The notes under the pieces: generated by a model
The model's input: the letters and a program-made list of their open reading frames with translations, nothing else
Database searches by the model: none
What the model was told of the DNA's origin: nothing
Made by a program: the position numbers and the translations under genes
NCBI RefSeq assembly: GCF_004795255.1
Contig: NZ_SSBQ01000002.1
Location: 3,491,501-3,555,500 of the forward strand
DNA length: 64,000 bases
Source: Streptomyces sp. RKND-216
Lineage (GTDB): Bacteria > Actinomycetota > Actinomycetes > Streptomycetales > Streptomycetaceae
Direction: 5' to 3'
In this document: piece after piece, positions 23,896 through 57,906 of the stretch
Layout: every line of letters begins with the position of its first letter
How positions within the stretch are numbered: the first letter of the stretch is position 1

Positions 23896-23901
23896 CCGGC
23901 A

Positions 23902-23907: not shown

Positions 23908-24006
23908 GCCGCCCCTCGCGCCATTCCACACCCCCGGGACGGCCAGTCCCAGGGAGCACCCCTTGTCACGGAGAGGACTTCGCAGTGGTCCAGCGTGATG
24001 CGGGCG

Positions 24007-26287: not shown

Positions 26288-26304
26288 CGACCGAAAGGAC
26301 CCGC

Positions 26305-35488: not shown

Positions 35489-35570
35489 CGTGACGGACCG
35501 TAAGCCCACAGTGGCCTGTCCGTTGTGGCGAAAGATGGTCACTGCTGTGCATGTTTCGGGGGGTTCCGCG

Positions 35571-38500
35571 ATGACGGCTGCTTACCAGGGTGAGAGACGT
35601 GACGCGACGGGAGGGCGTCCGCAGGTCTCCACGGACGCGGTCGACGGCGCCCGCTGTGACGTTCCGCTCTCCGTCGGGCAGGCGTCGCTGTACTTCCTTC
35701 AGGAACTCGCACCCGCGTCACCGGCCTACCATCTGGCTGCGACGGCCCGCGTGCGGGAGCGCCTGGATGCGGCCCGGCTGCGCAGCGGCTGGAAAGCGGT
35801 CTGCCGACGCCACCCGGTGCTCACCGGAGTCGTCGCCGAGGGGCAGGACGGATATGTGCAGCGCTGGGGCGCTGCCGTACCCACCTTCGCGATACGTGAG
35901 GTTCCCGGCGTCGAACGGGAGGAGTTGCTGCGGCTCGCGGCCGAGGACTACGAGGTTCCGTTCGTCCTGCGCGAAGAGGCGCCGGCCCGGTTCTTCGTCT
36001 ACCAGGAGGCCGACGCCACGACGCTGCACCTCGTGCTGCACCACGTCGCCGGCGACCTCACCTCCTGCTTCCTGCTCCTGGAGCAACTCCTCGCCCACTA
36101 CCGTGGCACGGCGGCCGACGTCCCCTCGCCCGCAGAGCCCGACACCTCGTTCGCCACGCATGTCGCGGCGGAGCGCAGGTTCCTCGACAGCCGTCGGTCC
36201 CACCCGATGCGCCGCTACTGGGCCGAGCGCCTGGCCGGCTGCACCTTCTCCCTCGAGGGGGTTCCCGCCACAGCCCCTCGCCCGTCCGGCGACGCGGGTG
36301 CCCCTGCATACGCCAGGGTCAGCATCTCCGCTGCCGTCGCCGCCCGCGTGCGGAACACCGCCGAGCGGACCGGCACCTCCACCGCCACCGTCCTCCTCGC
36401 CGCCTTCAACGTCCTCCTGCACAAGCTGACCGGAAGCGACGACGTTCTGGTCGGCTTCCCCACCGAGGGACGCAAGAAGGCCTTTCGGGAAACGGTGGGC
36501 TACTTCACCAACTCCCTGCTGCTGCGCACCTCCGTCACCTCCGGTGCGACCTTCGAGGCCGTTCTGTCCGCCACGCACTCCGCCCTGGTGGGGGCCGTAC
36601 GCCACCAGGCGTTGCCCACCCCGACCGTCCTCGGCCGGCTCTCGCCGGGGTCCGCGCTGTCCGGGCAGTCGCTCTACCAGGTCAGCTTCCAGTTCGAGCC
36701 GGAACGGCTGGCCTACGGAACGAAGGCGCTATTCGGCGGGCTCGGCCTCGTGCAGGTCGCCGGCTTCGACGTCGAGCCCCTCCCCGTGCGGCAGCAGGTC
36801 GCACAGTTCCCGCTGCGCATGCAGATCGGCGAGGTGGACGGGTTGCTGGAAGGTGCCCTGCACTTCGACCCGGAGCGGTTCGATGCCGAGACGGTGAGCG
36901 CCTACGCCCAGCTCTTCGAAAACCTCGTCGGAGAGGCGACCGCCGTCCCCGCAACCGTTGTCGGCGAGCTGGGCGGCACGCACCGACAGGCCGTCTCCGA
37001 ATGGTCCGGGGCACGAACACCTGCTGCCGGCGACGGCACCCCGGTGCATCTGCGGGTGGTGGAGCGGGCGAGGCGTGATCCGGAGGGGGTGGCGCTGGTG
37101 GACGAGGCGGGGAGCTGGTCGTACGCGGAGCTGGAGCGTGCGTCCGCGGTGCTGGCCGTGCGGCTGCGTGCGCTGGGTGTGGGTCCGGAGTCCGTCGTCG
37201 GCGTCTGCCTGCTGCGGTCCGCCCGCGCCGTCGTCGCCATGCTGGCGGTGCTGCGCGCCGGCGGCGCCTGGTTCGTGCTCGACCCGGCCTATCCCGGTGA
37301 GCGCCTGCGCACCATGCTGGCCGATGCGGGCTGTGCGGTGCTGCTGACCGCCGGGGATCTTCCGGACGTCCTGCGGGGCGGCGAGGATGGAGCAAACGAT
37401 CTCTTCCCCGCTCCCGCGGTGGTCGATCTGGATTCGGTCGGGCTGCGGGGCGGTGAGGCGTCCGGGCCGGACCGGGCGGGACTGGATCTGGCGGAGGCGG
37501 GCGATCTCGCGTACCTGGTCTACACGTCCGGTTCGACCGGTCGCCCCAAGCCCGTCGCCGTGCCGCACGCGCAGCTCGCCGCCTCCACCGCGGCCCGTGC
37601 CGCGTTCTACGGAGCGACGGCTCCCCGCTTCCTGCTCCTCTCCTCGCTCTCCTTCGACAGCGCCTATGCGGGCGTGTTCTGGGCCCTGACCTTGGGCGGG
37701 ACGCTGGCGCTTCCCGACGAGGGGCAGGGCAAGGACGCCGACGAACTGGCCGCGCTCGTCGCAGCGCACGAGGTCACGCACACCCTGACCGTGCCGTCCC
37801 TCCATCGCGCCCTGCTGCGCCGCCCCGGCGGCCCCGGCGCCTCGCTGCGCATGGTGGTGGTCGCGGGGGAGGCATGCACTCCGGACCTGGTGCGCGAGCA
37901 CCGTCGCGTACTGCCCCGATGCGCACTCGCCAACGAGTACGGACCGAGTGAGACCACTGTCTGGGCCACCGCGCATCTGCTGGAGGACGCCGAGCCGTCC
38001 GCGACCGTGCCCATCGGCCGGCCGGTCGCCGGTGCCACCGTGTTCGTTCTGGATGGTGGGTTGCGGCCGGTGGGTGCGGGTGTGGTGGGTGAGTTGTTCG
38101 TTGGTGGTGTGGGTGTGGGGCGTGGTTATGCGGGTCGGGGTGGGTTGACGGCGGAGCGGTTTGTTCCGGATGCGTGGTCGGGTGTGGTGGGTGGTCGTCT
38201 GTACCGGACGGGGGATTTGGTGCGGTTCGGTGGGGGTGGGGTGCTGGAGTTCTGCGGGCGGGTGGATGAGCAGGTGAAGGTGCGGGGTTTCCGGGTGGAG
38301 TTGGGTGAGGTGGAGGGGGTGGTGCGTTCGGTTGCGGGGGTGGCGGATGCGGTGGTGTCGGCGGTGGCGGGTGTGGGTGGGGAGTTGCGGTTGGTGGCGT
38401 ATGTGGTGGCCCGTGAGGGTGTGGTGGTGGAGGGGGAGTCGGTGCGGTCGTGGGTGGGTGAGCGGTTGCCTGCGTACATGGTGCCGGCGGTGGTGGTGGA

Positions 38501-41500
38501 GTTGGCGGTGTTGCCGTTGTCGCCGAACGGGAAGGTGGACCGGCGGGCTTTGCCGGTGCCGTCGTTCGAGGGTTCGGTGGAGGGGTTCGTCGCTCCGCGT
38601 GGTGAGGTGGAGCGGCGGTTGGCCGAGGTGTGGGCGGAGGTTCTGGGGCTGGAGCGTGTGGGGGTGGAGGACGACTATCTGGAGCTGGGCGGGGATTCGA
38701 TCCAGTCGATCCAGGTGGTGGCGTTGGCGCGGAGGGCGGGGATCCGTATCTCGCCGCGGCAGTTGTTCGAACATCCCACGATCTCCCGCCTCGCCCCCCA
38801 CGCCGAACTCCTCAGCTTCGCCGGGCCGGGAACGACCGGCAACACCCCGCCGACCGCCGCAGAGACTCCCGGAAGCCTCGTCGCCGACCTCCCGGCGGAG
38901 CTGCTCGACCACTGGGAACGGCGCCACGGTCCCCTGCACGCCGTATGGCCGATGTCCGGGCTCCAGCAGGGCATGCTGTACCACGCCCTCGCCGAACCCG
39001 GCACGCACACCTACATCGAGCAGCTCGTCTGCGAACTGCGCGGCGACGCCGAGCCGAAACAGCTGCTGCACGCCTGGCGCTCCGCCATCTCCCGGCACCC
39101 GGCACTTCGGGCCCACTGTGCGTGGGAGGAAGGGGACCGGCCGGTCCTGGTCGTCCCCCGACACATCGACGTCCCCGCCGTCCATCAGGACTGGACGAGC
39201 GAGGACCAAGCAGGCCCGGCCGGGCTCGGCGAACAGGCGACGGCGGACCGGCTCGCACGCTTCCTCAACGACGACCGCGAGGCCGGGTTCGACCTCGCCG
39301 CCGGTCCCTTGGTGCGCTTGGCGCTGCTCCGCACGGCACCGGACCGGTGGGTCCTGGTCTGGACGCACCATCACCTGCTGATCGACGGCTGGTCGCTGCC
39401 GGTGGTGGCCGGCGAGGCGTTCGAGCTCTACCGAGAGGCCGTAGCCGGGCGCGAAGCCGTTCTGCCGCCCGCCCCGGACTACGGTGCCTTCGTCCGCTGG
39501 AACTCAGAGCGGGAGGGGTCCGCTGACGAAGCCTTCTGGCGGGACCGGCTGCACGACTACACCCAACCCAGCCTGCTGCGCCCCGCGATGCTCGCCGCCC
39601 ACGGCGGCGGTGGCCGCGACCGGCATGAGCCGGGAACGCTGCTCACTCCGGAACGAGACGCCGCCGTGCGCCGTGCCGCCCGCAACCAGGGCGTCACCGT
39701 CGCCGCCCTCGTGCACGCCGCGTGGACGCTGGTGGTCGCCGGGCGGACCGGTGCCACGGACGTCGCCGTGGGCAGCGTGGTCGCCGGCCGGCCGGCAGAG
39801 GTGACGGACGTGGAGCGCACGGTCGGTCTCTTCGTGAACACGCTGCCGCTCCGAGTCTCCACCCGCGCATCCCGCACCACCGGCGCGTGGGCCCGGTTCG
39901 TACACGCCACGCTCCAGGACCTGGCGGACCACCAGCACAGCGCCCTGGCCGACGTCTCCGAGTGGGCGGGAGCGCCCGCGGGCGCCTCGCTCTTCGACTC
40001 CATCGTGGTGGTGGAGAACTACCCCTTCGCGCGGATCGACACGGGTGGCCTGGTACTGGAGCGGGGTCGACTGCTGGAACGCACCAATTACCCGGTCACC
40101 GTCCAGGTACTGCCCGGTGACCGCCTGGAACTGAGGGTCTGCGCCGACGCCGATGCCTACGAGGCGCGGGAGGCGGAGCACTTGCTGGACGACCTCCACT
40201 CCGTGTTGACGGCCCTCGCAGCCGATCCGGACCGCCCGCTTGCGGAGGTTCTGGACGAACTGTCGGCAGTACCCACCGAGTGGACCGGCGCGCACGTCGC
40301 GACGCACCAGCCGGCTCCTCCGGTGCATCTGCGGGTGGTGGAGCGGGCGAGGCGTGATCCGGAGGGGGTGGCGCTGGTGGACGAGGCGGGGAACTGGTCG
40401 TACGCGGAGCTGGAGCGTGCGTCCGCGGTGCTGGCCGTGCGGCTGCGGGCGCTGGGCGTGGGTCCCGAGTCCGTCGTCGGCCTGTGCCTGCCCCGGGGCT
40501 CGCTGATGGGTGTCGCCATGCTGGCGGTGCTGCGCGCGGGCGGCGCCTGGCTGGTGCTCGATCCGGCGTACCCGGGGGAGCGGTTGCGCACGATGGCGGC
40601 CGGCTCGAGCTGTCGTGCCGTGCTGCACGGAGACGGCACTCGCGAGATGATCGCCGGAGTGACGCCGGCGGGAGTCACCACCCTCGATCTGGATTCGGTC
40701 GGGCTGCGGGGCGGTGAGGCGTCCGGGCCGGACCGGGCGGGACTGGATCTGGCGGAGGCGGGCGATCTCGCGTACCTGGTCTACACGTCCGGTTCGACCG
40801 GTCGTCCCAAGCCCGTCGCCGTTACGCACGGGCAGCTCGCTTTCCACCTGCGCCAGATCGAGGACGTCTTCGGGCTCCGCGCCGACGACCGGGTGCTGGT
40901 CTTCGGTTCCTTCTCCTTCGACGTGAGTACCGAGCAGCTCTTCGCGCCCCTCGTTCTGGGCGGGGCCGCGGTCGTGCGGCCGGCCGACCTCCTGGACGGC
41001 GAGGAACTGCTCGCCTTCCTGACGCGGCACCGCGTCACCGTGTTCAATCCGCCGACCGGCCTGTGGCGCCGTCTGTGCGTGCTGCTCGCCGACGGGCTGC
41101 GCGTCCCTGAGGGCCTGCTCGTCCGGCTGACCGTGGTGGGTGGGGACGCCATGCCGTCCGACGAGGTCGCCGTGTGGGCGGCGGCCGTCGGAGGCCGGGT
41201 GCTCAACGCCTACGGACCCACCGAGACCGTCATCACCGCCACCGTGCACGACGCCTCCGACGAGGTGCTCGCGGGCACGCTGCGCTCCGACGGCGGAGTG
41301 GTGCCGCTGGGGCGTCCACTGCCCGGTGCCACCGTGTTCGTTCTGGATGGTGGGTTGCGGCCGGTGGGTGCGGGTGTGGTGGGTGAGTTGTTCGTTGGTG
41401 GTGTGGGTGTGGGGCGTGGTTATGCGGGTCGGGGTGGGTTGACGGCGGAGCGGTTTGTTCCGGATGCGTGGTCGGGTGTGGTGGGTGGTCGTCTGTACCG

Positions 41501-44500
41501 GACGGGGGATTTGGTGCGGTTCGGTGGGGGTGGGGTGCTGGAGTTCTGCGGGCGGGTGGATGAGCAGGTGAAGGTGCGGGGTTTCCGGGTGGAGTTGGGT
41601 GAGGTGGAGGGGGTGGTGCGTTCGGTTGCGGGGGTGGCGGATGCGGTGGTGTCGGCGGTGGCGGGTGTGGGTGGGGAGTTGCGGTTGGTGGCGTATGTGG
41701 TGGCCCGTGAGGGTGTGGTGGTGGAGGGGGAGTCGGTGCGGTCGTGGGTGGGTGAGCGGTTGCCTGCGTACATGGTGCCGGCGGTGGTGGTGGAGTTGGC
41801 GGTGTTGCCGTTGTCGCCGAACGGGAAGGTGGACCGGCGGGCTTTGCCGGTGCCGTCGTTCGAGGGTTCGGTGGAGGGGTTCGTCGCTCCGCGTGGTGAG
41901 GTGGAGCGGCGGTTGGCCGAGGTGTGGGCGGAGGTTCTGGGGCTGGAGCGTGTGGGGGTGGAGGACGACTATCTGGAGCTGGGCGGGGATTCGATCCAGT
42001 CGATCCAGGTGGTGGCGTTGGCGCGGAGGGCGGGGATCCGTATCTCGCCGCGGCAGTTGTTCGAACATCCCACGATCTCCCGCCTCGCCCCCCACGCCGT
42101 CACCGGCGACATCGCCTCTGCGGGCGCTCCCGGAGACTCGACGGACGTGCTCAGCCCGATCCAGGCGTGGTTCCACGAACTGGCGGTGCCCGACCCCGCC
42201 CACTGGAACATGGGCACCCTTCTCACCGTGCGCAGACCCGTCGAAGAGGAGCACCTGCGGGTCGCGTTGCGTGCCGTCGCGCAGACGCACGAGGCGCTGC
42301 GCACCCGGTTCGTCCCCGACGACGCGGGCACGGTCCGGGCCCTCGTGGGCGACTCCCCGGAGGTGCCGCTGACCTGGGCGGACCTCGCCACGGTCGCCCC
42401 GGCGGAGCGGGAGGCCGCCCTGCGGGACGCGGCCGACACCGCACACCGTCGCCTCGACCTTCGCCACGGACCGGTGTTCCGGGCCGTGCTGGCCGACCAC
42501 GGACCGGCCCGGCGGCAGCAACTCGTGCTCGTCGCCCATCATCTCGTGGTCGACGCCGTCTCGTGGCGCATCGTTCTCGAGGATCTCGACCTCGCGTTGT
42601 CCGCTGTGGCGGAGGGGCGCGATCCGGTACTCGAGCCGGAAGGCCTCACGCATCGCCAGTGGACGGCCGAACTGCGGCGGCGGGCGATCGACCCGCAGGT
42701 CACCGACCGGGTGGCGGCCGAGCGGTCACAACTGTCTGCACCGGGCGGCCCTGCCGGCCCGTTCGCCGGGGAGCGGCACGCGGGTACGGAGGGTGAGGCG
42801 TGCCGAGCGGTGCGCGCACTCACCGTCGAGCAGACCGAAGCCCTCCAGGAGGCGCTGGTCACCCGGCTCGGCGGCACGTGGGAGGAAGGGCTGCTCACCG
42901 CAGCGGCCCGTGCCCAGGCCCGTCGCACGGGACGGGATCGCATTGTGATCGAACTGGAGAGCCACGGTCGCGAGCACGTGCGAGAGGATCTCGACCTCTC
43001 CCGCACGGTCGGCTGGTTCACCACGCTCGCCCCGCTGCCGGTCGACACCACGGGCGAGAGCCCGCTGGCCACCCTGTGGGACGTCCGCAGTCGGCTCCAG
43101 GGCCTGGTGCATCGTGGCCTCGACCATGGCGTCGTCCGCCACCTCTCCGCCGACCCCGCGCACGAGGACCCGTCGGCGCCGCCTCCGGCGCCCGACCTCA
43201 ACGTCAACCACCTGGGCCGGATCGGGTCCGCCGCCGCCCCCGGGGCCCTGCTGGAGCTGGAGGCGCCCTCGTTCGGCCAGGTGCGCGACCCGCGTGCGCC
43301 ACGCCCCGCGGCCGTCCTCATGGAAAGCATGGTGTCCGACGGACGGCTCCGGGTGGAGATGGAGCACACCGACCAGGCGGCGGCGGACTCGCTCGCCGAC
43401 ACCGTCATGGCGGAGCTCCGGACGCTGGCCGGCGAGCAGAACGCGCCCGTCCTGACGTCCGGGCTGCGCCAGGGGACGGCCGTACCGGCAACCGTGGGGC
43501 ACTGGGCGGCACGCTGGGGCAGGCTGGCCGCGGTGTGGCCGCTGACGCCGATGCAGGAGGGCATGCTCTTCCGCTCGCTCGCCGCAGACGGGCCGGTTCC
43601 GCGCGACTGCGACGGGTCCGGAGTGTATGTCGAGCAGCTGACCTGCGTCCTCGAAGGCGACCTGGACCCGGAACGGTTCGCCGCCGCGTGGCAGTCGGCC
43701 GTGGACCGTCACCCCGTGCTGCGAGGCGTGTGCGTGTGGGAGGACGTGACCTCCCCCGTGCTGGTGGTACCCGCTGCCCTCGACCTGCCCGTCACGCTCC
43801 TGGACCTGCGCCTCCCCGCGGAGAGTGAGGCGGCGGGCCCAGCACGGGACGACCCGGACGCGGCCGAACGACGCCTCGAAGCGTACGTCGAGCGCGACCG
43901 GGGCACCGGCTTCGACCTCCGCTGCGGCCCGCTGATCCGGCTCGCGTTGGCCCGGCTGGCAGCCGACCGCTGGGCGTTCGTGTGGACCCACCACCACGTC
44001 CTGCTCGACGGCTGGTCCTTGCCCCTGCTGCTCGGGGACGTGCTGGCGGATTACGGCGCGCGTCTCGAGGGGCGTACCCACCATCTGCCGCCCGCCCCGG
44101 ACTTCGGTGCGTTCGCCCGGCACCTGGCCGACACCGACCGGTCGGACGCGAAGGAGTTCTGGACCGAACGGCTGGCCGGGGTGCGCCCCGCACTGCTGGT
44201 GCCTCGGCAGCAGGCCGCCACCCCGCGGCACCGGGACCACGTGGAGACCTGGCAGGAGGAGGACACCGAAGGACTGCGGGAGAGCGCGGGCCGGCTCGGC
44301 GTGACCCTGGCGGTCCTGGTGCACGCCGCCTGGGCACTCGTGCTGGCCGTCGAGACGGAACAGGATGACGTCGTCTTCGGCAGCGTCGGTTCCGGCCGAC
44401 CCGCGGACCTGGACGGCGCGGACCGAGCGGTGGGGATGTTCATCAACACCGTGCCACTCCGCCTCCGGACGGGAGCGGGCCTGCCCGTCCGCGACTGGCT

Positions 44501-44951
44501 CGGGGAGGTGCGGCGCCAGCTGGACGACTGCGGCAGGCACATCCACACGCCGCTCGCCCGGATCGCGCAGTGGAGTGGCAGATCCTCCGCCGCCGACCTC
44601 TTCGATTCCGCCGTGATCGTCGCCAACTTCCCCTTCGCCGGCCTCGGCGACGCCCTGCCCGGCATGCGTCTGCTCCGCGCGGAGGCACGCGAGCAGACCG
44701 AGATGCCGCTCACCCTGAGCACCGCCGTCGAGGACGGGCGGCTGACCCTCGCCGTCAACCACGACACCAACCGGGTCGGCGGCGAACGGGCCGCGTCCCT
44801 GACGCGCCGGCTGTCCACGGCACTGCTTGCCCTGTGCGAGGGCGAGGCGAACGTCGGCGAGATCGCCGCACGACTCCGTGTCCAGGCGCGGCAGGACCGT
44901 GCTGTCAGCCGCAGGAACCGCGCCTCGCGGCTGGCAGCACGCCGCCGCTGA
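35571..44951 (+). CDS. NRPS1: C-A-PCP-C-A-PCP-E-C
   Basis: 3126 residues from ATG 35571 (GGGGGG about 8 bases upstream); the frame is open to GTG 35490, so the start is uncertain. Domains: C1 about 31-470 (HHVAGDL, His157-158; the usual Gly after Asp is Leu); A1 494-1000 (pocket residues read by eye as D-S-A-L-V-A-E-V-W-K, nearest to histidine-type codes I remember); PCP1 with Ser1043 (LGGDSIQSI); C2 with HHLLIDG at 1267; A2 about 1580-2080 (D-V-E-N-V-G-A-I-T-K, suggesting a basic residue such as an ornithine type); PCP2 Ser2141; an epimerase at 2170-2620 ([11 protein letters not shown], His2323-2324; NVNHLGRIG); and a final C at 2650-3090 (HHVLLDG at 2808) with no A domain behind it. That last C must serve NRPS2. 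As the first module also carries a C domain, the peptide may be N-acylated or preceded by another unit. Confidence 0.92.
38029..38805 (+). repeat. 777-bp direct repeat, copy 1 (A1 C-terminal part + PCP1 of NRPS1)
   Basis: Appears identical to 41323-42099 at an offset of 3294 bases. It covers the A-domain C-terminal half after the pocket region, the A10 lysine and the whole PCP. Codons are strongly G- and T-ending (GGT, GTG, TTG, GAT), unlike the C-ending codons on both sides. Confidence 0.9.
41323..42099 (+). repeat. 777-bp direct repeat, copy 2 (A2 C-terminal part + PCP2 of NRPS1)
   Basis: Second copy of the block at 38029-38805. The sequences diverge one base before CCGGTGCCACCG and directly after CACGCCG, so both edges are sharp. 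Confidence 0.9.
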
Positions 44952-44997
44952 CCCTCGTCCCTTTCTTCCACTCACAGACAACGGGGAGCCACCACTG

Positions 44998-46068
44998 ATG
45001 TCCCTTCGCACGTCCTCCAGACCGTTGCGGGCGGGCAGACGCCGCTCGCTCACGGACGCCGACGCCGTCGCCTTCCGCGCTGTGGAGCCTCCGGCACTGC
45101 CCGTCCTCGCCACTCCGACGACAGCGGGTGTGCCGCTGTCCGTCTGGGCGGAGGCACACGCGTCTGTGGTGAGCGAACACCTGCACCGCACCGGCGCGGT
45201 GCTCTTCCGCGGGTTCGACGAGGGCGCTGCGGCGCTCCGCACCGTGGTCGAGCGGGTCGCGGGGGACGGCGCATTGGACTACGAGGACGGTGCGACACCC
45301 CGCAGCGCCCTGGACCAGGGCGTCTACTCGTCCACCGAGTACCCGGCGGACCAGACCATCGAGATGCACAACGAGGGCTGCTACAGCTGGAAGTGGCCCC
45401 GGGTACTCGGCTTCGCGTGTGCGGTGGCGCCGACCACTGGAGGGCAGACCCCGCTGGCCGACTCCCGCGCCGTGCTCCGGCGCGTGCCCGGCGACCTGGC
45501 TGGCCGCCTGGAGAGGGAGGGCGTGCGGTACGTGCGCAACTACACGCCGGGCGTGGGCATCGCCTGGCAGGACGCGCTCGGCTGCGGTGAGCAGGGGCTG
45601 GCGGACTACGCCGAACGTACCCACACGGAGGTGACCCGGGTCGGGGACGACCACCTGCGCACGGTCGCTCTCCGGCCGGCGGTCGCTCGCCACCCGGAAA
45701 GCGGCGCCTGGGTGTGGTTCAACCAAGCCACGAGTTTCCACGTCAGCACCGTCGGCGAGGACCTCGCCGAGGAGATGGTCCGGCAACTCGGGCACGACCG
45801 GCTGCCCAAGACCACCGAGGCCGGCGACGGGACCCGCTTCACGACGGACGAACTCACCTCGATCCGGGCGGCGTTCGCGGCGGAGACCACGACCTTCGAC
45901 TGGCAGCGCGGTGACGTTCTCCTCGTCGACAACATGCTCGTCGCACACGGTCGTGCTCCTTTCACCGGAGACCGCGAGATCCGCGTCGCCATGGCGGGCG
46001 GCTGGGACTGGTCGGGCCCGCGTACCCGCCGTACCCGTACCGAGAACGACGGGGAGGCGGTCCGATGA
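44998..46068 (+). CDS. SyrP-like Fe(II)/2-oxoglutarate-dependent hydroxylase (TauD/TfdA family)
   Basis: 356 residues from ATG 44998, with GGGGAG upstream. The iron-binding facial triad is visible as His124-x-Glu126 in TIEMHNEGCYSWKWP and His317 in LLVDNMLVAHGRAPF; Arg in REIRVAMAGG would hold 2-oxoglutarate. The HNExxYxxxWP form and GGQTPLADSRAVLRRV are typical of the SyrP group, which beta-hydroxylates amino acids bound to NRPS carrier proteins (SyrP acts on aspartate). The stop codon overlaps the NRPS2 start (ATGA), so the two are translationally coupled and the hydroxylase may act on the residue held by the NRPS2 PCP (inference). The histidine-like residue of NRPS1 is another possible target. 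Confidence 0.88.
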   Translation: MSLRTSSRPLRAGRRRSLTDADAVAFRAVEPPALPVLATPTTAGVPLSVWAEAHASVVSEHLHRTGAVLFRGFDEGAAALRTVVERVAGDGALDYEDGATPRSALDQGVYSSTEYPADQTIEMHNEGCYSWKWPRVLGFACAVAPTTGGQTPLADSRAVLRRVPGDLAGRLEREGVRYVRNYTPGVGIAWQDALGCGEQGLADYAERTHTEVTRVGDDHLRTVALRPAVARHPESGAWVWFNQATSFHVSTVGEDLAEEMVRQLGHDRLPKTTEAGDGTRFTTDELTSIRAAFAAETTTFDWQRGDVLLVDNMLVAHGRAPFTGDREIRVAMAGGWDWSGPRTRRTRTENDGEAVR

Positions 46069-49000
46069 CCCCCGAGAACATGACCCAGACCGCGACGAGC
46101 GGCGAGGAGACCCTGCGTACCGGGCCTCACCAGTGCGACGCCCTCGCCGACGGCACCGTTCTGACCACCGTCGTACGGCCCCGGGCCGCAGTCACCGCGG
46201 AACGGCTCGCCGAGGCCGTGGAAGCCCTGGCGGAGACCCACGAGGTGCTGCGCACCACGCTCATCGGCTCCGGTACCGACGGTCCGCCGCTCCAGCGGAT
46301 CACGCCTGCGGGGTCCGACCCGTGCGTCAGCGACGAATGGTCGGCACGGCTGCTGCCCGACGACGGGCGCATCGAGGTCACCGCTCGGGCGCGTTGCCTG
46401 GACCATGAGTCTCTGCTGCTGATCGCCGAAGCGCTCGCCGACCGCGCTTCCGGCCCTCCGGACGGCGGCATGCCGGGCTCCACGGACGGGACCGGCGCCG
46501 GTGCGCACGGCGAGTCGGCGCCACCCCAGTACGCAGACGTTGCCGAGTGGCTGCACGAGGTGCTGAGCGACCCGGAGGCGGCGACGGCCCGTTCCGGCCA
46601 ACTCGACGACGGCGCGGAGTTCGTTGAGGACGACGGCCTGCTGGACCGGCTGCGTGCCCTCGCACCACGGCGTACGCCCGGGACGCACGACGCGCCCGCC
46701 GGAGAGCCTGCCGCCCGGACGATTCTTGACGACCTGCCCGCAGACGGCACCGAATCCGCCGAGGACATCGGCGATCTCCTGTTGACAGCCTGGCTGGTTG
46801 TGCTGCGACGGTTCTGCGGGACGGACGCGGTGGCCGTGCGGGTCCGCAACTCTCTCCGGGCCGTCCCCGAACTGCGTTCCGTGCCCGGCCCGTTGTCCGC
46901 CTGGCCCGCCCTGCGGCAACAGCTCGACGGCGAAAGGGTGCTGGCTGACGCGCTGGACGGCGTGCGCGCTGCCCGTGCGGTACAGCGCGATACCGCCGAA
47001 CTGATCACGGATCTCTCGCGCGTCGCCGGGCCCCTGGCCTTCTCGCACGCCACCGTCACAGCCGGCTCGCCCGCCGAGGTCCTCACCGCCACCGCATCCC
47101 CGGCAGGGCTGCACCTGCACGCGGTGTCGTACCCGGACCGCACGGACATCACGCTCGGCGGCGTGCACGCCGCCCAACTCGGCACGGACGTCGCAGGACG
47201 ACTGTTGGCGGCCGTCGCAGCCGTCTCACGCGCGATCCGGCGGGATCCGAAGACGACCGTTGGCCGGGCGGATCTCGGCGAGCCCGCCGCCGCGGCCCGT
47301 ACCGCGGTGACTCCGACCGCGGTCGCCTGGCAGGACCGGACGCTGACAGACCTGGTGCTCGCCACGGCCCGGGACGTTCCGTCCGCCGTCGCGGTCCGCT
47401 GCGGGGAGCAGGAATGGTCCTACCGCGACCTGGTCTCCCGCGCAGAGGCGTGCGCCGCGCAACTCGTGGCCGCCTGCGGTCCGACGCGCTCCCAGGGCGT
47501 CTCCTCCGAGCGGGTCGTCGCCGTCCGGATCGCCGACCCCTTCCGGCGTCTGACCGCGCAGCTCGCGGTGCTGCTCGCCGGTAGGGCCTACCTGGTCGTC
47601 GACCCGGCGGACCCGGACGCCCGCGTACGCGATCTGCTCGCTGAAGTGGGCGCGCAGGCCTGCGTGGTCGCCGACGCGGAACCGGAACTCCACCATGTCG
47701 GCGACTGGGGCGAGGGGGTGCCGGTCGTGGCCGTCGACGCTCCCGCCACAGCGCAGGGCACCCCTGTGGACACCGGCCGGTGCTTGCCGGACGACCTCGC
47801 CTACCTGCTGTTCACCTCCGGATCGACCGGACGGCCCAAGCCGGTGGCCGTCACCCACCGGAACGTCGTCAACTACCTCGGCTGGCTGGCCGATACCGGC
47901 CTGGTCACGGCGAGCACCGTGCTCCCGGCCACTGCGGCGCCCGTCTTCGACGCCTCGCTCAAGCAACTCTGGGGCCCGCTCGCCCTCGGCGGCACGGTCC
48001 GGCTTCCGGCACCTGGACAGAACCCGGTGGAGGTCCTCGCCGCCGCCGTCACGGACCCGACGACCACCACCCTCAACACCGTCCCCCGCCTGTGGCACGA
48101 CACGCTCGCCGGTATCGGTACCGTCGCGGTGCAGCGCGAGACCCCTCTGACGCTGCTCCTCGGCGGCGAGGCGCTCACCCCCGACCTGATCACCCGCACC
48201 GGAGAACTGCTTCCCGGCACCCGCGTGTGGAATCTGTACGGGCCCTCCGAGACCACCGCGAACGCCTCCGCGGCTCCGCAGCCGACGGGCTCCGACCCCG
48301 TCGACCTCGGCGAGCCCGTCGGCGGCACGTCCCTGCACGTATTGGACGACGCGTTGCGGCCGGTGCCGGAGGGTGCCGTGGGGGAGTTGTACGTCGGGGG
48401 CGCCGGTGTCGCCCGCGGCTACGCGGGACGCGGGGCGCTGACCGCGGAGCGCTTCCTGCCCGACCCCTTCTCCCCGGTGCCCGGGGCTCGCCTGTACCGC
48501 ACCGGCGACCTCGTCCGCCTCGATGCCTCCGGTCGGCCCCACTATCTCGGGCGAGCGGACGACCAGGTGAAGGTACGCGGCCAGCGCGTCGAACCGGCCG
48601 AGATCGAAGGAGTGCTGGCCCGGCACCCGCAGGTGACGGCCTCCGTGGCAGCCGTCCGGGACGACCGGCTGGTCGCCTGGATCGTGCCCGGCGAACGGGG
48701 GGCGCCGGACGTCGACGGTCTCCGCGACCTGTGCGCGTCCACCCTCCCCGCCTTCATGGTGCCCTCGGTGTTCGTCCCCGTGGAACGGGTCCCGCTCACC
48801 GTGAACGGCAAAGTCGACCGCGCGGCCCTGCCCGACCCGCAGGCCGCCCACCTTCGCAGCAGAGGCGAGGCCATCCTGCCACCGCGCACCCCTCTGGAGG
48901 ACGTCGTCGCCGAGGTGTGGTGTTCCGTGCTCGGTCTCGAACGGGTCGGGGTGCACGACCAGTTCTTCACGCTCGGCGGCGACTCCATCCGCGCGATGCA

Positions 49001-49214
49001 CACCGTCGCGCGGATGCGTGAACTGATGGGAATCGAGATCCCGCTGCGCGAGTTCCTGTCCGCCACCACCGTCGAGAGCCAGGCGCAACTGCTGCTGCGG
49101 CACGACCACGACGGGTCCGTCAGCGCTTTCGCCGAGGCCTACGCCGCGCTGGGCGACGAGGACGAGAACACCGCCCCCACCGTCGACGACGCCGTCGAGG
49201 AGAGGCAGTCATGA
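46065..49214 (+). CDS. NRPS2: degenerate C (possible interface domain)-A-PCP
   Basis: 1049 residues. Residues 30-400 resemble a condensation domain at low level ([39 protein letters not shown]), but the catalytic HHxxxDG is gone: the corresponding stretch at 109-117 reads ARCLDHESL. The A domain is at about 425-930 ([11 protein letters not shown] at 583; pocket read as D-A-K-N-L-G-L-A-N-K, which I cannot assign; NGKVDRAAL at its end). The PCP has Ser974 in LGGDSIRAM. With no working C domain it depends on the C domain that ends NRPS1. Dead C-like domains next to stand-alone beta-hydroxylases are known as interface domains in some siderophore NRPSs. Both ends overlap their neighbours as ATGA. 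Confidence 0.88.
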
Positions 49215-52200
49215 GCGATCTCGGACGTCTGGAAAGGGCTCGCCGGGCGGTCGCCGCCCGTGGTGCCCAGCCGGCACACACCCGACCCGGACCGCGCCGC
49301 CGCCCCGATCCCGCCGACGTGGTGCTGTCCGAGAGCCAGACCCAATTGTGGTTCGCGCACGCCCTCGACGCGACCGGCACCGCGTACACCGTGCCCGCCG
49401 TACTCGACATCGACGGCCCCCTCGACGCCGCGGCGCTGACCCGCGCCTACGGGACGGCGCTGGGGCGGCACGAAGGACTGCGCCTGCGGGTGTCGGACGT
49501 CCGAGGACGGCCCTCCGCCGTCCTCGGCGACCGGCTCCCCGGCCTCCGTACGGCAGACCTGTCCGGGCTGCCGCCCGCGGAGGCGGAACGGCGCCGTGAC
49601 GTTCTCACCGACGAGCAGGTGCGGGAGCCCTTCGACCTCACGGGCGGAGGTAGTCTGGTACGGGCGCTTCTCGTGGCTCTGGCTCCCGAACGGCACCGCC
49701 TGGTGGTCGCCTTCCACCATCTGGTGGTCGACGGGTTGTCCATCAGCATCCTCGTTCGGGAACTCACCGAGGCCTACGGGGCGGCAACCCTCTCCACCAC
49801 GTTCCCCCGGCCGTCCGCCGGGACCCGCGGCTCCTATCTCGACTTCGCCTGGTGGGAGCACGTGCGGCAGGACGATCCGCCGACCCGGAACGACTCTCTG
49901 GAACACTGGCGGCAGACTCTGGAAGGAGCCCCACGAGGCCTGGATCTGCCTCTCGACCGCATTCGTCCGGACACCCGGGGCCACCGCGGCCGTCACCTCG
50001 TGCACGACACCGGGGCGGCGCTGCGCGGCCGGGCAGAGAAGTTCGCCGCGGGCTCCGGCGCCTCCGTCTTCTCGGTGCTCTACAGCGCCTGGCGCGCCGT
50101 GCTGCACCGGGCGAGCCGCGCCGACGACCTGATCGTCGGGGTGCCGGTGGCGAACCGGGCCCGCCCCGAACTGGTCGGGGTGGTCGGCCCGTTCCTCAAC
50201 ACCCTCCCGCTCCGGAGCACGTTGCGCGACGACGCGTCGCTGCGGGACCTCACCGGGGACTCCGCGCGCGCCGTCGTCGAGTCGCTCGACCACCAGCACG
50301 TGCCCCTCGGTAACGTCGCCGCGCAGCTCGCGGACGGCGAACCGGGCCCGCTGTTCGGCGCGATGTTCACCTTCCTCGGCGAGGACCGCACCGGTTTGCG
50401 CATGGGGCCGGCCCGCATGACCCCCGTCGCCGTGGAGACCGGCACCAGCAAGACCGACGTGACGCTCAGCGTGGCGAGTCGCGGCGACGCCTTCGAGCTG
50501 ATGCTGGAGTACGACTCCGACCTGCTGCACGAGACCACCGCACGGGGGCTGCTGGAGGCGTTCGTCCACCTGCTCTCCGCAGGCCTCGACGCCCCGGACC
50601 GGCCCGTGCGGATGCTGCCCATGTCCAGGAGGCGTGAGCTGCCCGGCCCCGCCGCCCGCCCCCGGGCAGAGACGGCGCTCGACACGATCATCGCCGAGAC
50701 CGTCGAGCGGCACCCCAGGAACACCGCGCTCCGCTGGCACGGAGAGCGGATCGACTACGGCACCCTGGCCGGCCGTGCCGACGACCTGGCGCGGTACCTC
50801 GTCGCCCGCGGCGTACGACCCGGCGACCGGGTACCGCTGCTGCTCGCCCGCGGCCCGGCGCAGGTCGTGGCTCTGCTCGCGGTGCTGCGCGCCGGCGCGG
50901 CGTACGTGCCGATCGATCCGGGGCATCCGGCCGAACGTGTCCGGCACGTCGTGCAGGACTCCGCCGCCACGCTGCTCGTGACGGACGGCACCGGCTCCGT
51001 GCCGCCGGACGGTCCTGCCCGCGTCACCGTGGACGAGACGGGCCGCCTCCGGACGGCCTCAGCCGAGCAGGCCGAGGAGACCGGGCGGCTGGCCGGGGAC
51101 GGCGGACCGCCCCCCTCTGCCGTGCCGACCCAGCTTCCGGCCCGCCACCCCGAGGACGCGGCCTACGTCATCTACACCTCCGGGTCCACCGGACGCCCCA
51201 AGGGTGTCGTCGTCCCCGACGCCCAGGTGGTCCGCCTGTTCGAGGCCGCCGGTGAGCACTTCACGTTCGGCCCCGACGACGTGTGGACCCTGTTCCACAG
51301 CTACGCCTTCGACTTCTCGGTCTGGGAGATCTGGGGCGCCCTGCTGCACGGCGGCACGCTCGTGCTCGTGCCCCCCGAGACGGCGACGTCGCCGCCCGAA
51401 CTCCTGGAACTCCTGGAACGCGAGGCGGTGACGGTCCTCAACCAGACCCCCTCCGCCTTCAGCGGCCTCGCCGAAGCCGACCGTGCGGACGGTGCCCGGC
51501 GCCGTCTCGCCCTCCGCTACGTCGTGTTCGGCGGGGAACGGCTGGAGCCGCGTGTGCTGCGGTCCTGGCTGAAGCACCGGGGGGACACGGTCCCAGAGCT
51601 GGTCAACATGTACGGCATCACCGAAACCACCGTGCACACCACGTACGGGCGGATCTTCGCGGAATCCGTGACCGACGGTCCGGGAAGCCCGGTCGGACGT
51701 CCGCTGGCGGACCTGGCCCTGTACGTGCTGGACGACGCGCTGCAGCCCTTGCCGCCCGGTCTGGTCGGGGAGCTGTACGTCGGGGGCGCCGGCCTCGCCC
51801 GGGGATACGGCGGCCGAGCCGCGCTCACCGCAGAGCGCTTCGTCCCGGACCCGTTCTCCGCCGTTCCCGGTGCCCGTCTATACCGCACCGGCGACCTCGG
51901 CCGCGTGGACGAACACGGGCGGTTCGAACACCGTGGCCGCGCCGACGACCAGGTCAAGATCCGTGGGTTCCGCATCGAGACCGGCGAGCTGGAGGCCGCA
52001 CTGGTCTCCCACCCCGGCGTCGAAGAGGCCATAGCGGACAAACGCGGTGACCGGCTCGTGGCCTGGCTCAAGCCGGCCGGCGACGAACTGCCCGGCGTCG
52101 CGGAACTCCGGGACCACGCGGCGACACTGCTGCCCCGCTACATGATCCCCGCAACGTTCGTGCCGGTGCCGCACATTCCGCTCACGGTCAACGGCAAGGC

Positions 52201-55200
52201 CGACCGTCGCGCCCTGCCCGACCCCGACGCGAGCCGACTCGACGCGACGGAACCCTATGTCGCGCCGCGCGACGAGGCGGAAGAGGCGGTCGTCGGCGTC
52301 TGGGAGGCCGTACTCGGTGCCCCGCGAGTCGGCGTCCACGACAACTTCTTCTCCCTCGGGGGCGACTCCATCCGCGCGGTAGAGATCACCGGCAGGCTGC
52401 GTGCCCTCGGCCACGAGACGCAGGTGCACGCCGTCTTCCGTCATCAGACCGTCGCCGAACTCGCCGCGGTACTGTCCCCCGCCGAAGCGACCCCGCTGGT
52501 GCGGGCCGAACCGTTCGAGATGATCGGCGCCCCGGACCGGGCCGCGCTCCCCGCGGATGCGGAGGACGCCTACCCGCTCACCGCCACGCAGTCCGGCATG
52601 CTCTACCACCTGCGGCTCAACCCCGAGGCCGGCCTCTACCACAACACGGTCAGCGTACGGCTGCGCGGCCGTGTCGACCCCGAGGCGCTGCGGCGGGCGC
52701 TGGGCGACACCATGGCGCGCCACGCCGTTCTGCGGACCTCCGTCCACATGGAGGGCTACTCGGAGCCGATGCAGGTCGTGCACCGCGAGGCTCGGCCACG
52801 GCTGACCGTCACCGACCTCTCCGGCCTGAGCGACGACGAACAGCAGGAGGAGATCGACGAGTTCGTTGCCGAGGAGCGGGAGGTCCACCTCGACCTCGCC
52901 ACCGCCCCGCTCTACCGCCTCGCCGTGCACCTCCTCGGCGAGGACGAGTTCCAGCTGACGGTCAGCGAGAACCACGTCATCCTGGACGGGTGGAGCTGGA
53001 CGTCCACGCTCGCGGAGATCCTCGCCCGGCAGGCCGCGCTGCTGGACGGCGCGGCGGACTACGCCGAACGCTGGCCCGCGATCCCGTCCCGGTACGCCGA
53101 CTTCGTGAAGCTGGAGCGGGGCGCTACGGGCCCCGACGTCGCCGCGACATGGAGGGAACGCCTCGCCGACGCAGAACCGCGGTCCATCGCCGACCTGCGT
53201 TCCGCCGGCATGCCGGAGGTGCGCCGGCTCCCCGTCGACATCGACACTGACACGTCGCGTCGGTTGAGCGAGACGGCGCGACGCGAGGGCATGCCCGTCA
53301 AGAGCCTGGCCGTCGCCGCCCACCTGAAGGTGCTGGCGGAGGCGCTGGCCGTCGACGACCCCATGACCGGGATGGTGCTCCACGGGCGTCCCGACCAGCC
53401 GGGGGCCAAGGACATGCGCGGCCTCTTCATCAACATGCTTCCGGTCTCCGTCTCCGTGCCCGGAGGCAGCGGGGTCGACCTCGCCCGACGGGTGTTCGCC
53501 CAGGAGCGTGCCACCCTCGAGGGCCGGCACACGCCGCTGGTGACCGTGCAGCGCACACTGGGGAACGAGACCCTGTTCGACGTCGGTGTGAACTTCGTCC
53601 GGTTCCACGCGCTCGGTGAGGTGCTGGACACCGGGGTCGTCGAACTCATCGACCACCACCCCGCGTCGGCGGAGGACACCAACTACGCGGTCATGGCCAC
53701 CTTCTCGGTGCACCCGCCAGACTACGAACTCGGCCTGATGCTTGCCTACGACGCCGACCGGGTGTCCGACGCGTGGGCGGCCAGGCTGCGCGACATGTAC
53801 GCGGAGGCGCTGCGGCGCCTCGCCCACGAGCCGGATGCCCCGCACGACGGGCGCAGCCTGCTGTACCAGGACGCACAAGCCGCCGCCGCACTCGCTGTCG
53901 GCCCTGACCTGGACGTGCCGACCGGTACCCTCCCGGGCACGGTCGCGGACGTCGCGGCCGAGCGGCCCGGAGCGGTGGCGGTGAGCGGTCCGGACGGCAC
54001 CCTCACCTACCGGGAGCTGGTCGCGCGCGCCCGGCACGGGGCTCGGCTGCTCGCCGCGGCGGGCGTGCGCCGCGGCGACCTGGTGGCCGTGGCGGCCCGG
54101 CGCGGCACGGGCCTCGTCGTCGCGGTGCTTGCTGCGATGGAGGCCGGCGCGGGCTATGTCCCTATCGACCCCGACCTGCCGCTGGACCGGATCGCGCACC
54201 TCGTCCGGGACTCCGCATGCCGCACCGCGCTCACCGCACACCTGACGGACGCCGACACCCCGGTGCTCGACGTCCTCACGGACGCGGGAGTGGCCGTCCG
54301 TTCCCTTACCGCACCGGACGACGCAGGCGCGGAGCCGGCCGACGGCGTGACGGGCACCGTGGAGGCGATCCCGGAAAGGCCGAAGCCGGAAGATCTGGCC
54401 TACGTCATCTACACCTCCGGCTCCACAGGGACCCCGAAGGGCGTCGCCGTCAGCCACCGGAACGTACTCGCCTATCTGAGCGCGTCCGCCACGGTGATCG
54501 CCCCGGAACCCTCGGACGTGGTGGCGGTGCGTTCCACCTTCACCTTCGACCTGTCGGTGTGGGAACTGTTCGCGGGTCTCGTCGCGGGTGCGCGCGTCCA
54601 CTTGGTGGACGCGGTGACCGCCGCCGATCCGTCCGCACTGAGGGAGGAGCTACGGACGACCGGTGTGACCATGCTCGCCACCACTCCCACCATCGCGCAG
54701 GAACTCACCGCCGTGGACCGGCAGTCCGGTACCGGCATCGGTCTTCGCGCGCTGCTCCTGGCCGGCGAGGAGGTGGTGCCGGCACGCTTCGGCGACTGGT
54801 TCGACAGCCCGTCGGCACCCGGCTGCACGGTGTTGAACTGGTACGGGCCGACAGAGGCGACCGTCCTGATGACCGTGGCCGAGCTGACCGCGCGGACCAC
54901 GCGCCGCGTTCGGGCTCCCATCGGAGGTCCTGTCCCCGGCTCCAGCGCCTGGGTGCTCGACGCGGGGTTGCGGCCGGTGCCTCCGGGCGCCAGCGGGGAG
55001 CTGTACATCGGCGGTCTCCAGGTCGCACAGGGGTACTGGCGTCGCCCCGGCCTCACCGCCGAGCGTTTCGTGCCCGACCCGTTCTCCGACGTCCCCGGCG
55101 CCCGGCTCTACCGGACCGGCGACCTGGCCCGGCACCGAGCCGACGGCCTTCTCGAGTTCCTCGGCCGTTCCGACAACCAGGTCAAGATCCGTGGCCACCG

Positions 55201-55882
55201 CATCGAGCTCGGCGAGATCGAGGCCCGGGCGGTCGAACACCCCGACGTGGCGGCATGTGCCGTCCTCGTGCACGGCGCCGGCGGCGAGCACCCCCGTCTG
55301 GTCGCCTGGATCGTCCCGGCGACGGACGCGTTCGACCGACGAGCCCTGCGCACCCGGCTTGCCGGGCAACTGCCCCGGCACGCCCTGCCCGCTGCCGTGT
55401 GCACGGTGAGCGCGATTCCGAAGACGCCGAACGGCAAGCTCGACCGGCGTGCCCTGCCGGTGCCCACCGTGAGCGACTTCCTCGGAAACGGCGAGGAGGC
55501 CGAGCCCGCCCGGGACGACACCGAACGCGGCCTGCTGGCCCTGTGGCAGGAACTCCTCGGTGTCGAGGGCTTCGGCGTCCGTGACCACTTCTACGAAGTG
55601 GGCGGCCATTCGCTGCTCGCCACGCGTCTCCTGCTCCGCGTCCAGCAGGAGTACGGCCTGCGTGTGCCCATGCGACAGGTGATGGCCGACTTCACCGTCG
55701 CCGGCCTCGCGGACATCGTCCGCACCGCCACCGCGGATGCCGCCGTCGACGTTCCGCCGACCGAGACCACACCGGAACCAGCGCCCACCGCGGTCGCCGG
55801 CCACGCCGACCCACTTCCCCACGACATCGGAACGGCGTCCGGAACCGCCGGCCGTCCCGCCCTGGAGGACGACCAGAGATGA
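49211..55882 (+). CDS. NRPS3: C-A(Thr)-PCP-C-A-PCP
   Basis: 2223 residues. C4 is at 37-470 ([10 protein letters not shown], His169-170). The A domain at 490-1000 has the pocket D-F-W-N-V-G-M-V-H-K, one residue from the standard threonine code DFWNIGMVHK, so threonine is a firm prediction. The PCP has Ser1053. C5 at 1115-1560 has [10 protein letters not shown]; the first His is Asn1254, but the catalytic second His (1255) is kept. The last A domain at 1580-2080 reads D-L-W-A-L-A-W-V-L-K, unassigned. The final PCP has Ser2134 in [11 protein letters not shown]. After it there are only about 60 disordered residues; no thioesterase, reductase or terminal C domain is present. Release therefore needs another protein. 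Starts and ends with ATGA overlaps. Confidence 0.93.
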
Positions 55883-57528
55883 GTCTTGTCTCCCTGCTCG
55901 CGAACCGGTCACGTGCCACCGTTATCGCCGCCATGATCGCGGGCCTGCTGTCCGGCGCCTCCACCGTGGCACTGATCGCGGTGCTCCAGGCAACGCTGCA
56001 GAACCTGCGCAACCCGGGAGTGCTGCTCGTGGTCGGCTTCGTCGCCGCCGCGCTCACCGTTCTCCTGGCAGGGGCGGTGTCGGCCGTCCTGCTGATCAGT
56101 CTCGCCCAGCGATCCATTCAGACCCTGCGCACCGAGCTGTGCTCCCGCATCCTGGACAGCGGTCTGCGGCGGATCGAGACCATAGGCACCTCGCGGCTCC
56201 AGTCGGCGCTCACCGACGACGTGCAGGTCATCACGAGTGCCGTGAGCAGCGTGCCGCTGCTGTCGATCAACGGCGCCATCGTGGTCGGTGCGTTCGTCTA
56301 CATCGGCATCCTCTCGCTGAAGGTGCTGCTGGGCATGGTGGCGATCCTGCTGGTAGGGCTCGTGCTCTACCAGCTCCCGGTACGGCGGGCCGGCGTCCAC
56401 CTGCGCCGTGCCCGTGTCCACCAGGACGTCATGCACGGCCACCTGGAGAGCGTGGTGCGCGGCGCCAAGGAGCTGAAGCTCGACCGTGCCCGCCGCGGCG
56501 ACGTCATCGACGGAGGCGTCGGCGCCACCGGCCGCCTTCTCGTCCGCGACACCACCCGCGGCGTCGCCTTGTACACCGTCGGCGGGTCATGGGGGCAGCT
56601 GCTGTTCCTCGCCAGCATCGGCATCATGCTCTTCTCGGGCCCGGCTCTCGGCATAGCCGAGGAAGACCTGACCGGGTTCACCCTGGCCGTGCTCTACATC
56701 AATACGCCGCTGGTGACCGTGCTGAACCTGGTCCCCGCGCTCGGCCGAGCCGGTACCGCACTGGACTCGCTGAACACCCTGGACCTCGGGGACGAGAAGG
56801 CCCTGCCCGCACCAGCGGCCACCGAGCAGCCGGCTCCGGGAGACGACCGGCCCGCCCCGGGAGCGCGGCTCACGCTCGAGGGCGTCGGTTTCCGCTACGC
56901 CACGACGGACGAGTCCGGCTTCCAGGTCGGGCCGATCGACATCGACTTCCCCCCCGGCACGCTCACCTGCCTGATTGGAGGCAACGGCAGCGGCAAGACC
57001 ACCCTCGGCAAGCTGATCTGCGGTCTCTACCGCCCCGACACCGGCCGCATCCTGCTGGACGGCAGTCCGGTGACCGACGAGCGCCTGCCGACGCTGAGGG
57101 AGAGCGTGGCCGGTGTCTTCTCCGACGTCCACCTCTTCCGCACGCTGCCCGCGCACCGGGGCGACGACGCGGAGGCGAACCGGCTGCTCCAAGAGCTGGG
57201 CATGGCGCAGAAGGTGCAGGTGCGGGAAGGAGAGTTCTCCACGATCGCCCTGTCGACCGGACAGCGCAAGCGCCTTGCGCTGGTGTCGGCCCTGCTCTCG
57301 GACCGCCCGATCCTGCTGTTCGACGAGTGGGCGGCCGACCAGGACCCGGAATTCCGCCACTTCTTCTACACGGTCGTGCTGCCGCAACTGCGGGAACAGG
57401 GCAAGACCGTGGTGGTCATCACTCACGACGACCGCTTCTTCAACATCGCCGACCGCATTCTGAAACTCGACCGCGGCACCGAGGACGTCCGGACCGAGCT
57501 GGCGCCACACGCCGCAACCGCCGTCTGA
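55879..57528 (+). CDS. Cyclic peptide export ABC transporter (SyrD/PvdE type)
   Basis: 549 residues, with a fused membrane and ATPase half-transporter. Six transmembrane helices occupy about residues 10-300. The nucleotide-binding domain has Walker [21 protein letters not shown], the signature [18 protein letters not shown] (T in place of the usual G of LSGGQ), Walker [13 protein letters not shown] and the switch histidine in [11 protein letters not shown]. The [23 protein letters not shown] stretch is characteristic of the family that exports cyclic lipopeptides and siderophore precursors (SyrD, PvdE). It starts inside the last codons of NRPS3 (ATGA), so the product is made and exported from one transcript. 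This suggests a cyclic or siderophore-like peptide (inference). Confidence 0.92.
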
Positions 57529-57788: not shown

Positions 57789-57906
57789 GCCGCTCCGACG
57801 TCCCCGCCCGGCCCGCTGGCCCATCGACCCCGGCCCCCCGGACAGAACCGGAGCCCCCGTCCACGTCCGCCCCCATCGGCACTTGCACGACAACGGAGGA
57901 ACCCAC

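Follow-up and report, generated by a model that had tools for sequence, protein, structure and literature searches.

We analysed a 64,000-nucleotide stretch of the Streptomyces sp. RKND-216 genome (contig NZ_SSBQ01000002.1, positions 3,491,501 to 3,555,500; the window), which holds three nonribosomal peptide synthetase (NRPS) genes, NRPS1 to NRPS3, and a TauD-type hydroxylase gene between the first two, all on the + strand. The N terminus of NRPS2 is a catalytically dead relative of condensation (C) domains, here called X. Our main finding is that X is probably (about 0.7) an interface-type domain that docks the hydroxylase, so that the residue bound to the NRPS2 carrier would be beta-hydroxylated and then condensed by the orphan C domain with which NRPS1 ends.

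Domain search and the open reading frame (ORF) gave NRPS2 (46065..49214, 1049 amino acids) the order dead C-like domain, adenylation (A) domain and carrier (T) domain. X occupies 46065..47324 and is followed by the A domain (47337..48842) and by the T domain (48903..49094; PF00550, residues 947-1010) with its GGDS motif. A sequence-only reading of this DNA had reported ARCLDHESL in place of the HHxxxDG motif, and this was borne out: the motif position (46386..46406) reads R108-A-R-C-L-D113-H114 (RARCLDH), with the catalytic His changed to Ala and the structural Asp kept. X has a C-domain fold according to an AlphaFold model (pTM 0.80) and a fold match. When X alone was compared with PDB sequences the best match had an E value of 0.006. 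The Pfam Condensation model matched NRPS2 residues 33-81 with 24 bits, under the cut-off of 30.6, and precomputed domain lists name X for the window protein and not for three orthologues. Interface-type domains are thus easily overlooked.

Upstream, NRPS1 (35490..44951) is a 3154-residue open frame with four PF00668 matches and two AMP-binding stretches, in the order C-A-T-C-A-T-E-C, where E is an epimerization domain. Its last domain is an orphan C (43536..44837, residues 2684-3117) with the intact motif HHVLLDGWS and no A domain after it, as the sequence-only reading had stated. The E domain of module 2 (42147..43400) clustered with E domains (SH-aLRT 99), and the orphan C fell, as expected after an E domain, in the clade labelled DCL (SH-aLRT 100). 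The second C domain of NRPS1 (38946-40250) also sits in the DCL clade with no E domain before it, and the label is therefore not proof of a D-configured donor.

The hydroxylase gene (44998..46068) encodes a protein of 356 amino acids with one TauD domain (PF02668, 132.1 bits), the signature of an Fe(II)/2-oxoglutarate dioxygenase. The start at 44998 was preferred over the TTG of the longer ORF, because MSLRT is common to all four clusters compared here. The iron site H124-x-E126...H317 and R326 are present in 15 of 15 aligned rows, including that of the window. By the usual rule such an HxE...H site marks a hydroxylase and not a halogenase, and we therefore assign the enzyme as a hydroxylase. 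Its position between NRPS1 and NRPS2, and the ATGA that forms both its stop and the NRPS2 start (46065..46068; GTCCGATGACC), agree with the sequence-only reading of a SyrP-like gene overlapping NRPS2.

This arrangement was found to be conserved. A scan of a genome collection with two hydroxylase peptide patterns gave 21 matches, from which three loci were obtained, belonging to Streptomycetaceae bacterium MP113-05 (L009), Streptomyces lasiicapitis (L010) and Streptomyces sp. CCM_MD2014 (L011, genome G281). All three keep the order NRPS1, hydroxylase, NRPS2, NRPS3. With the window and two further NRPS2 orthologues (P0003 and P0124) they make up an X family of six. In the window and the three other clusters X directly precedes A-T and the upstream protein ends in a C domain, which is intact in each; the hydroxylase and NRPS2 genes overlap by four bases in 4/4, and the TauD and X domains lie 3-54 bases apart. 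The catalytic His is absent from all six X domains, with Ala in five and Thr in P0124, and the Asp is kept. Identity among the four clusters was 44-70% for X and 63-79% for the A domain. For two cluster pairs, the simple ratio of nonsynonymous to synonymous substitution rates in X was about 0.32 and 0.38, indicating purifying selection, and in an approximate A-domain stretch it was 0.25 and 0.32. X is not a frame accident, because the domain is under purifying selection, and the other three clusters likewise keep the gene order and an uninterrupted X-A-T reading frame.

The pathway appears to be uncommon, as a close hydroxylase (E below 1e-190) occurred in just two of 394 genomes of the bacterial family, the window's own and G281, with the next match at 1.4e-104. 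A four-row X profile run on the same genomes gave strong loci in these two and at most 47.1 bits elsewhere, and a phmmer search with NRPS2 residues 1-420 returned the query itself and two relatives. Around matches to the X profile we scored 20 stretches; here and in the control counts below, domains of 150 residues or fewer were left uncounted. Ordinary C-superfamily types accounted for 52 of the 53 counted domains; the single interface domain, in L087, was not itself the profile match for which its stretch was chosen.

The class of X was determined with subtype hidden Markov models (HMMs) and a tree. A first tree (FastTree, motif columns kept, without support values, 179 rows after removal of three identical ones from 182) supplied the seed of the interface class: of 25 C-like domains with low scores, the nine that shared a clade with X. 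L095, L099 and L126/L132 (the last two being the same domain) joined the set once the HMM built from this seed favoured them. The interface set thus consists of 12 dead C-like domains of other genomes, all with a TauD gene no more than 2 kb away, and serves as a set of proxies for interface domains and not of sequences named so in print. The labels LCL, DCL, modAA, E, Cy and Cstart were assigned here from clades of the first tree, motifs and context. The final tree had 74 rows (50 comparison domains hand-picked from the first tree, 12 interface, six X and six window domains) with the motif columns masked.

In this tree the NRPS2 N terminus was placed with the TauD-associated dead C-like domains: the 18 interface and X rows were split from the 56 other C, E and Cy rows with support of 100/99, and the nearest row to X was L095 (98/85). 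A clade of X with LCL domains, the outcome that the sequence-only reading had named as counting against it, was rejected (approximately unbiased test, p 4.3e-5). Among seven subtype HMMs the six X domains, none of which was in the training set, all scored best as interface (74-100 bits), as compared to 26-46 bits for LCL and 5-13 bits for DCL. In a held-out test with close pairs kept together, 12 of 12 interface members still scored best as interface. The idea of an interface-type station is thus supported by the tree and by the subtype HMMs (6/6), with proxies standing in for named interface domains. By HMM scoring no interface type was found among 40 domains of the other NRPSs of the same genome (11 stretches, with two matches lying across stretch ends), nor among 34 domains in the 30 loci of the best phylum matches to the interface profile. 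Within TauD stretches the interface type made up 4/62 domains in genomes, 8/62 in plasmids (one counted twice) and 4/29 in the orthologous clusters. Dead-looking domains with a DxxxxD motif (L087, L097, L098 and L102) were rejected as interface candidates; they form a clade of their own beside E and look like heterocyclization domains.

The relatives also resemble the window in gene order. Ten of the 12 comparison loci have an orphan C, either as the last domain of the upstream protein or, in four of them, joined to TauD in one protein. In Azospirillum oryzae (L119) and Janthinobacterium lividum (L132) an NRPS ends in an orphan C with the hydroxylase fused behind it, and N-hydroxylase or FhuF genes lie in the neighbourhood; in the cyanobacterial L117 and L125 the hydroxylase forms a two-domain C-TauD protein. 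The Leptolyngbya locus (L124), E-C / TauD / I-A-E, where I is an interface domain, has the order of the window up to the last E. The strongest case for the orphan C, the hydroxylase and the interface domain working side by side comes from the C-TauD fusions. In a quick tree of 64 rows the window hydroxylase joined that of L095 (SH-aLRT 90; the L095 branch is long). The same X/L095 pairing in the hydroxylase and interface trees fits partners that changed together, with moderate support. Two details of these loci were also recorded. The interface-A gene of L117 (Trichormus variabilis plasmid C, 10790-14041) is interrupted within the A domain, unlike that of L125 (Nostoc carneum), which is open. 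Plasmids of Klebsiella pneumoniae (L112) and Vibrio coralliilyticus (L127) carry an interface-A protein with an Asp-type code and an adjoining TauD gene; their neighbours include phenylacetate-CoA-ligase-like and aminotransferase genes, and the stretch seen has no siderophore annotation.

Several observations weigh against an interface-type assignment of X. The HMMs and the final tree are not independent of the first tree, because the seed came from the clade of X, and the link to TauD is partly built in, since most loci were chosen for holding a TauD gene. With only 15-29% identity between X and the comparison domains, long-branch attraction is possible, and for short N-terminal pieces of X the C class scored as well as the interface class or a little higher. 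In 396 phylum genomes the interface profile matched ordinary C domains with up to 226.9 bits, above X, so that only the comparison between HMMs separates interface from C, and the phylum search is unusable as a count of co-occurrence. The hydroxylase of the X family falls apart from the main group of interface partners in the 64-row tree. The TauD gene comes after the I-A gene in L087 and L102, and also in L112 and L127, which are without an orphan C.

In the mechanism that we propose, module 2 of NRPS1 would make a D-residue by means of its E domain, and the NRPS2 A domain (A3) would load the carrier of its own protein. X, a C domain that has lost the catalytic His but kept the fold, would most likely dock the TauD hydroxylase encoded upstream, and the docked enzyme would beta-hydroxylate the residue held as a thioester on the carrier. 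The orphan DCL-type C would then join the D-configured donor to the hydroxylated residue, and NRPS3 would add Thr and a fifth residue. From these sequence features we infer the docking, the carrier-bound timing, the beta position and the substrate. The Azospirillum and Janthinobacterium fusions and the recurring gene order fit a scheme in which the C domain condenses and the hydroxylase acts between. Possibly the hydroxylase/interface pair also replaces a docking-domain pair, with a tailoring enzyme bridging two synthetases, because in four relatives a C-TauD fusion stands upstream and an interface domain starts the downstream protein.

An alternative is that X remains from the duplication of a C domain and has only a structural role, in the folding of NRPS2 or the docking of NRPS1 to NRPS2; the hydroxylase would then work on the free amino acid before A3 activates it. 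Dioxygenases acting on free amino acids exist (VioC and MppO), and the window enzyme is a weak match (20.7 of 345 bits) to the model of one enduracididine beta-hydroxylase, GntD. TauD genes next to NRPSs, moreover, mostly have no interface domain close by (38 of the 55 TauD domains in the loci had none within 5 kb), so that the interface domain would be one of several ways to use such enzymes. However, such a remnant would not be expected to cluster with dead C domains that also have TauD genes as neighbours, and the four-base overlap with NRPS2 and the fusion of the hydroxylase to the orphan C in relatives speak against it as well; we consider it unlikely. It is far less probable that X is a divergent but working condensation domain, which would make the orphan C of NRPS1 redundant. 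The motif Asp (D113) is kept, one His is missing from the second C domain of NRPS3 as well (NHVILDG), and L010 and P0003 have a His one place past the catalytic position (SAHVLD), which is also a point against X as a dead domain. The NRPS3 domain, however, retains the second, catalytic His, where X has Ala or Thr, and all four clusters have an intact orphan C.

Hardly any weight falls, likewise, on X as an AMDH-type domain as in CysH and AlbIV, with its own chemistry on the carrier-bound residue. In CysH, too, A and T occur with an unusual domain and an oxygenase partner, and Asn is hydroxylated while on the carrier, according to the excerpt of PMC7966384; the same excerpt describes AMDH as an insertion of 38 kDa in CysH that has an ATP-site motif. 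X, in contrast, is N-terminal, has about 400 amino acids and a C-domain fold, and NRPS2 consists of X, A and T only. The docking part of our interface-type proposal would also hold if the docked dioxygenase carried out gamma-hydroxylation, desaturation or epoxidation, which the enzyme family allows and for which the new pocket leaves room. We regard this as rather improbable, as the interface-linked families described in the available part of PMC12971057 make beta-hydroxy-Asp or beta-hydroxy-His.

As for the residue, the pocket code of the NRPS2 A domain is DAKNLGLANK in all six family members, whereas DLTK-type codes, for Asp/Asn, are found in nine of the 12 comparison modules. The remaining ones have DSAILVEIWK (L095) and DAHITTHVVK (L117/L125). 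The final K of every code was assumed, and in NRPS2 the lysine is visible (K916). As the sequence-only reading had claimed, the pocket is not aspartate-like when measured against the nine DLTK-type modules, and being neither Asp- nor His-type it does not fit the partner pocket of the IbetaH_Asp or IbetaH_His hydroxylase subtype. The reading of codes was checked with three ACV-synthetase-like genes, which gave EPRNLVEFVK, DHESDIGITK and DFESLAAVYK; by known codes these stand for aminoadipate, Cys and Val. The excerpt of PMC12283262 prints DLTKVGHVGK as an Asp/Asn code, which was used for the same check, and DPRHLALLAK for aminoadipate; DAQDLGVVDK is a printed Glu/Gln code.

An L-lysine 6-transaminase gene (LAT; 57883..59295, +; TIGR03251, 578.9 bits with a cut-off of 520.8) and an aldehyde dehydrogenase gene (26221..27834, +; PF00171), a candidate piperideine-6-carboxylate dehydrogenase and LAT partner, flank the synthetases. 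In the excerpt of PMC9854754 this enzyme pair makes aminoadipate in cephamycin producers. Both genes have 76% identical counterparts around the NRPSs of CCM_MD2014, with LAT on the same side. A 61% identical aldehyde dehydrogenase homologue adjoins a LAT homologue in four other genomes, and LAT homologues adjoin ACV-synthetase-like genes in three. Among 101 genus genomes drawn, own included, LAT homologues (E<=1e-60) occurred in nine and the aldehyde dehydrogenase (E<=1e-100) in five. The pair is thus a probable aminoadipate supply, although the aminoadipate could serve a module other than NRPS2.

A Lys at position 239, where aminoadipate codes have Arg, favours an acidic side chain; a basic residue at this position is common to the NRPS2 code, DPRHLALLAK and EPRNLVEFVK. 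The flanking LAT and aldehyde dehydrogenase therefore make 2-aminoadipate or Glu the leading substrate guess, a weak one. Some scores run counter to it. The NRPS2 code agrees with the printed aminoadipate code at 4/10 and with the Glu/Gln code at 5/10 positions, both low, and at 7/10 with an ornithine code, DMENLGLINK, which differs at 239; ornithine was ranked behind because position 239 is Lys and not acidic. The aldehyde dehydrogenase scored 325.6 with the piperideine-6-carboxylate dehydrogenase model, as compared to a cut-off of 730. We judge an acidic residue longer than Asp about an even call; 2-aminoadipate itself is a tentative choice, and Glu takes most of the remaining acidic odds. 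The full combination, an interface-type station for L-2-aminoadipate from the flanking genes that gives 3-hydroxy-2-aminoadipate in a Streptomyces peptide, is doubtful. Literature searches with four of the pocket codes of the cluster found no paper, a result of little weight as they also missed a known Glu code, and those with names of hydroxylated aminoadipate found only papers unrelated by title. A serine/threonine-dehydratase-like pyridoxal-phosphate enzyme (60146-61117; PRK08246, 380.5 bits with a cut-off of 331) follows LAT and had no match in the CCM_MD2014 stretches compared.

The rest of the assembly line can be read as follows. NRPS3 (49211..55882, C-A-T-C-A-T) overlaps NRPS2 likewise by four bases (49211-49214). 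Its A4 code is DFWNVGMVHK, presumably Thr-like, and its A5 code is DLWALAWVLK. The second C domain of NRPS3 (C5; 52571..53872, motif NHVILDGWS) matched the structures of McyA (8jbr, 226 bits) and AmbE (7r9x, 208.7 bits) best, the next being at 118.6; given this likeness, and as the AmbE domain is a dehydrating one, the preceding Thr could become dehydrobutyrine. In NRPS1 the A1 code DSALVAEVWK is His-like and the A2 code DVENVGAITK is Arg-like, each agreeing at 9/10 positions with the pattern printed in the excerpt of PMC12283262, from which their meanings were taken. The first C domain groups with C domains labelled starter-like, and the peptide may start with His-D-Arg, perhaps acylated. A cyclic-peptide-export ABC transporter gene (55879..57528, +; TIGR01194, 383.6 bits with a cut-off of 286.2) lies downstream. 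No thioesterase was matched at the end of the assembly line, in NRPS3 or in the other ORFs scanned. A PF00144 hydrolase (22930-23931) was set aside as release enzyme, being without a match in the CCM_MD2014 stretches compared.

Dead C-superfamily domains that recruit oxygenases are known from other systems. Interface domains are reportedly paired with IbetaH hydroxylases in siderophore NRPSs (Reitz et al., PNAS, 2019). The window shares with these a dead C-superfamily domain before A-T, an orphan C on the previous protein and a TauD enzyme between, and X falls in one clade with domains from the siderophore-type clusters of A. oryzae and J. lividum. Unlike its fused relatives there, the window hydroxylase is a separate protein, the pocket is neither Asp- nor His-like, and the X family has R, S or T where the comparison motif has Pro. 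No siderophore N-hydroxylase or uptake genes were found among 20 window ORFs scanned; the TIGR01194 exporter type is also annotated in two siderophore-type clusters. The X domain of glycopeptide synthetases is likewise a dead C-superfamily domain recruiting tailoring oxygenases, in that case P450s, and the PDB titles of 4tx2/4tx3 read 'X-domain' and 'complex of X-domain and OxyB'. These domains were compared through structures and PDB profiles, outside the tree; the interface profile gave 160.1 bits on one, under several ordinary C domains. Cystobactamid CysH/CysJ, in the excerpt of PMC7966384, resembles the window in that an oxygenase acts on the amino acid carried by a free-standing A-T protein; unlike NRPS2, CysH has an AMDH domain and its product is passed on by a shuttle protein and not by an orphan C.

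Interface domains as such are known and are named in the available part of the antiSMASH 8.0 paper (PMC12230676); what is new is a conserved Streptomyces family with another pocket. If our reading is true, the interface-domain idea reaches beyond the Asp and His modules named in print and takes in a residue of another kind, in a conserved Streptomyces pathway. The rules of partner choice would become testable, since the pairs differ in pocket (that of the window, the Asp type and perhaps a His type) and also in hydroxylase, and if the pair links both synthetases, a tailoring enzyme would serve as a docking element useful for engineering. Nearest to the window in both the domain and the hydroxylase trees is L095 (genome G066 of the same family; domain 10746-11990), with the order C / TauD / I-A-C-A. 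Its pocket DSAILVEIWK is also not of the Asp type and differs from that of the window; it agrees at 6/10 positions with the His code DSALIAEVWK printed in the excerpt of PMC12283262, so that L095 is perhaps a histidine station.

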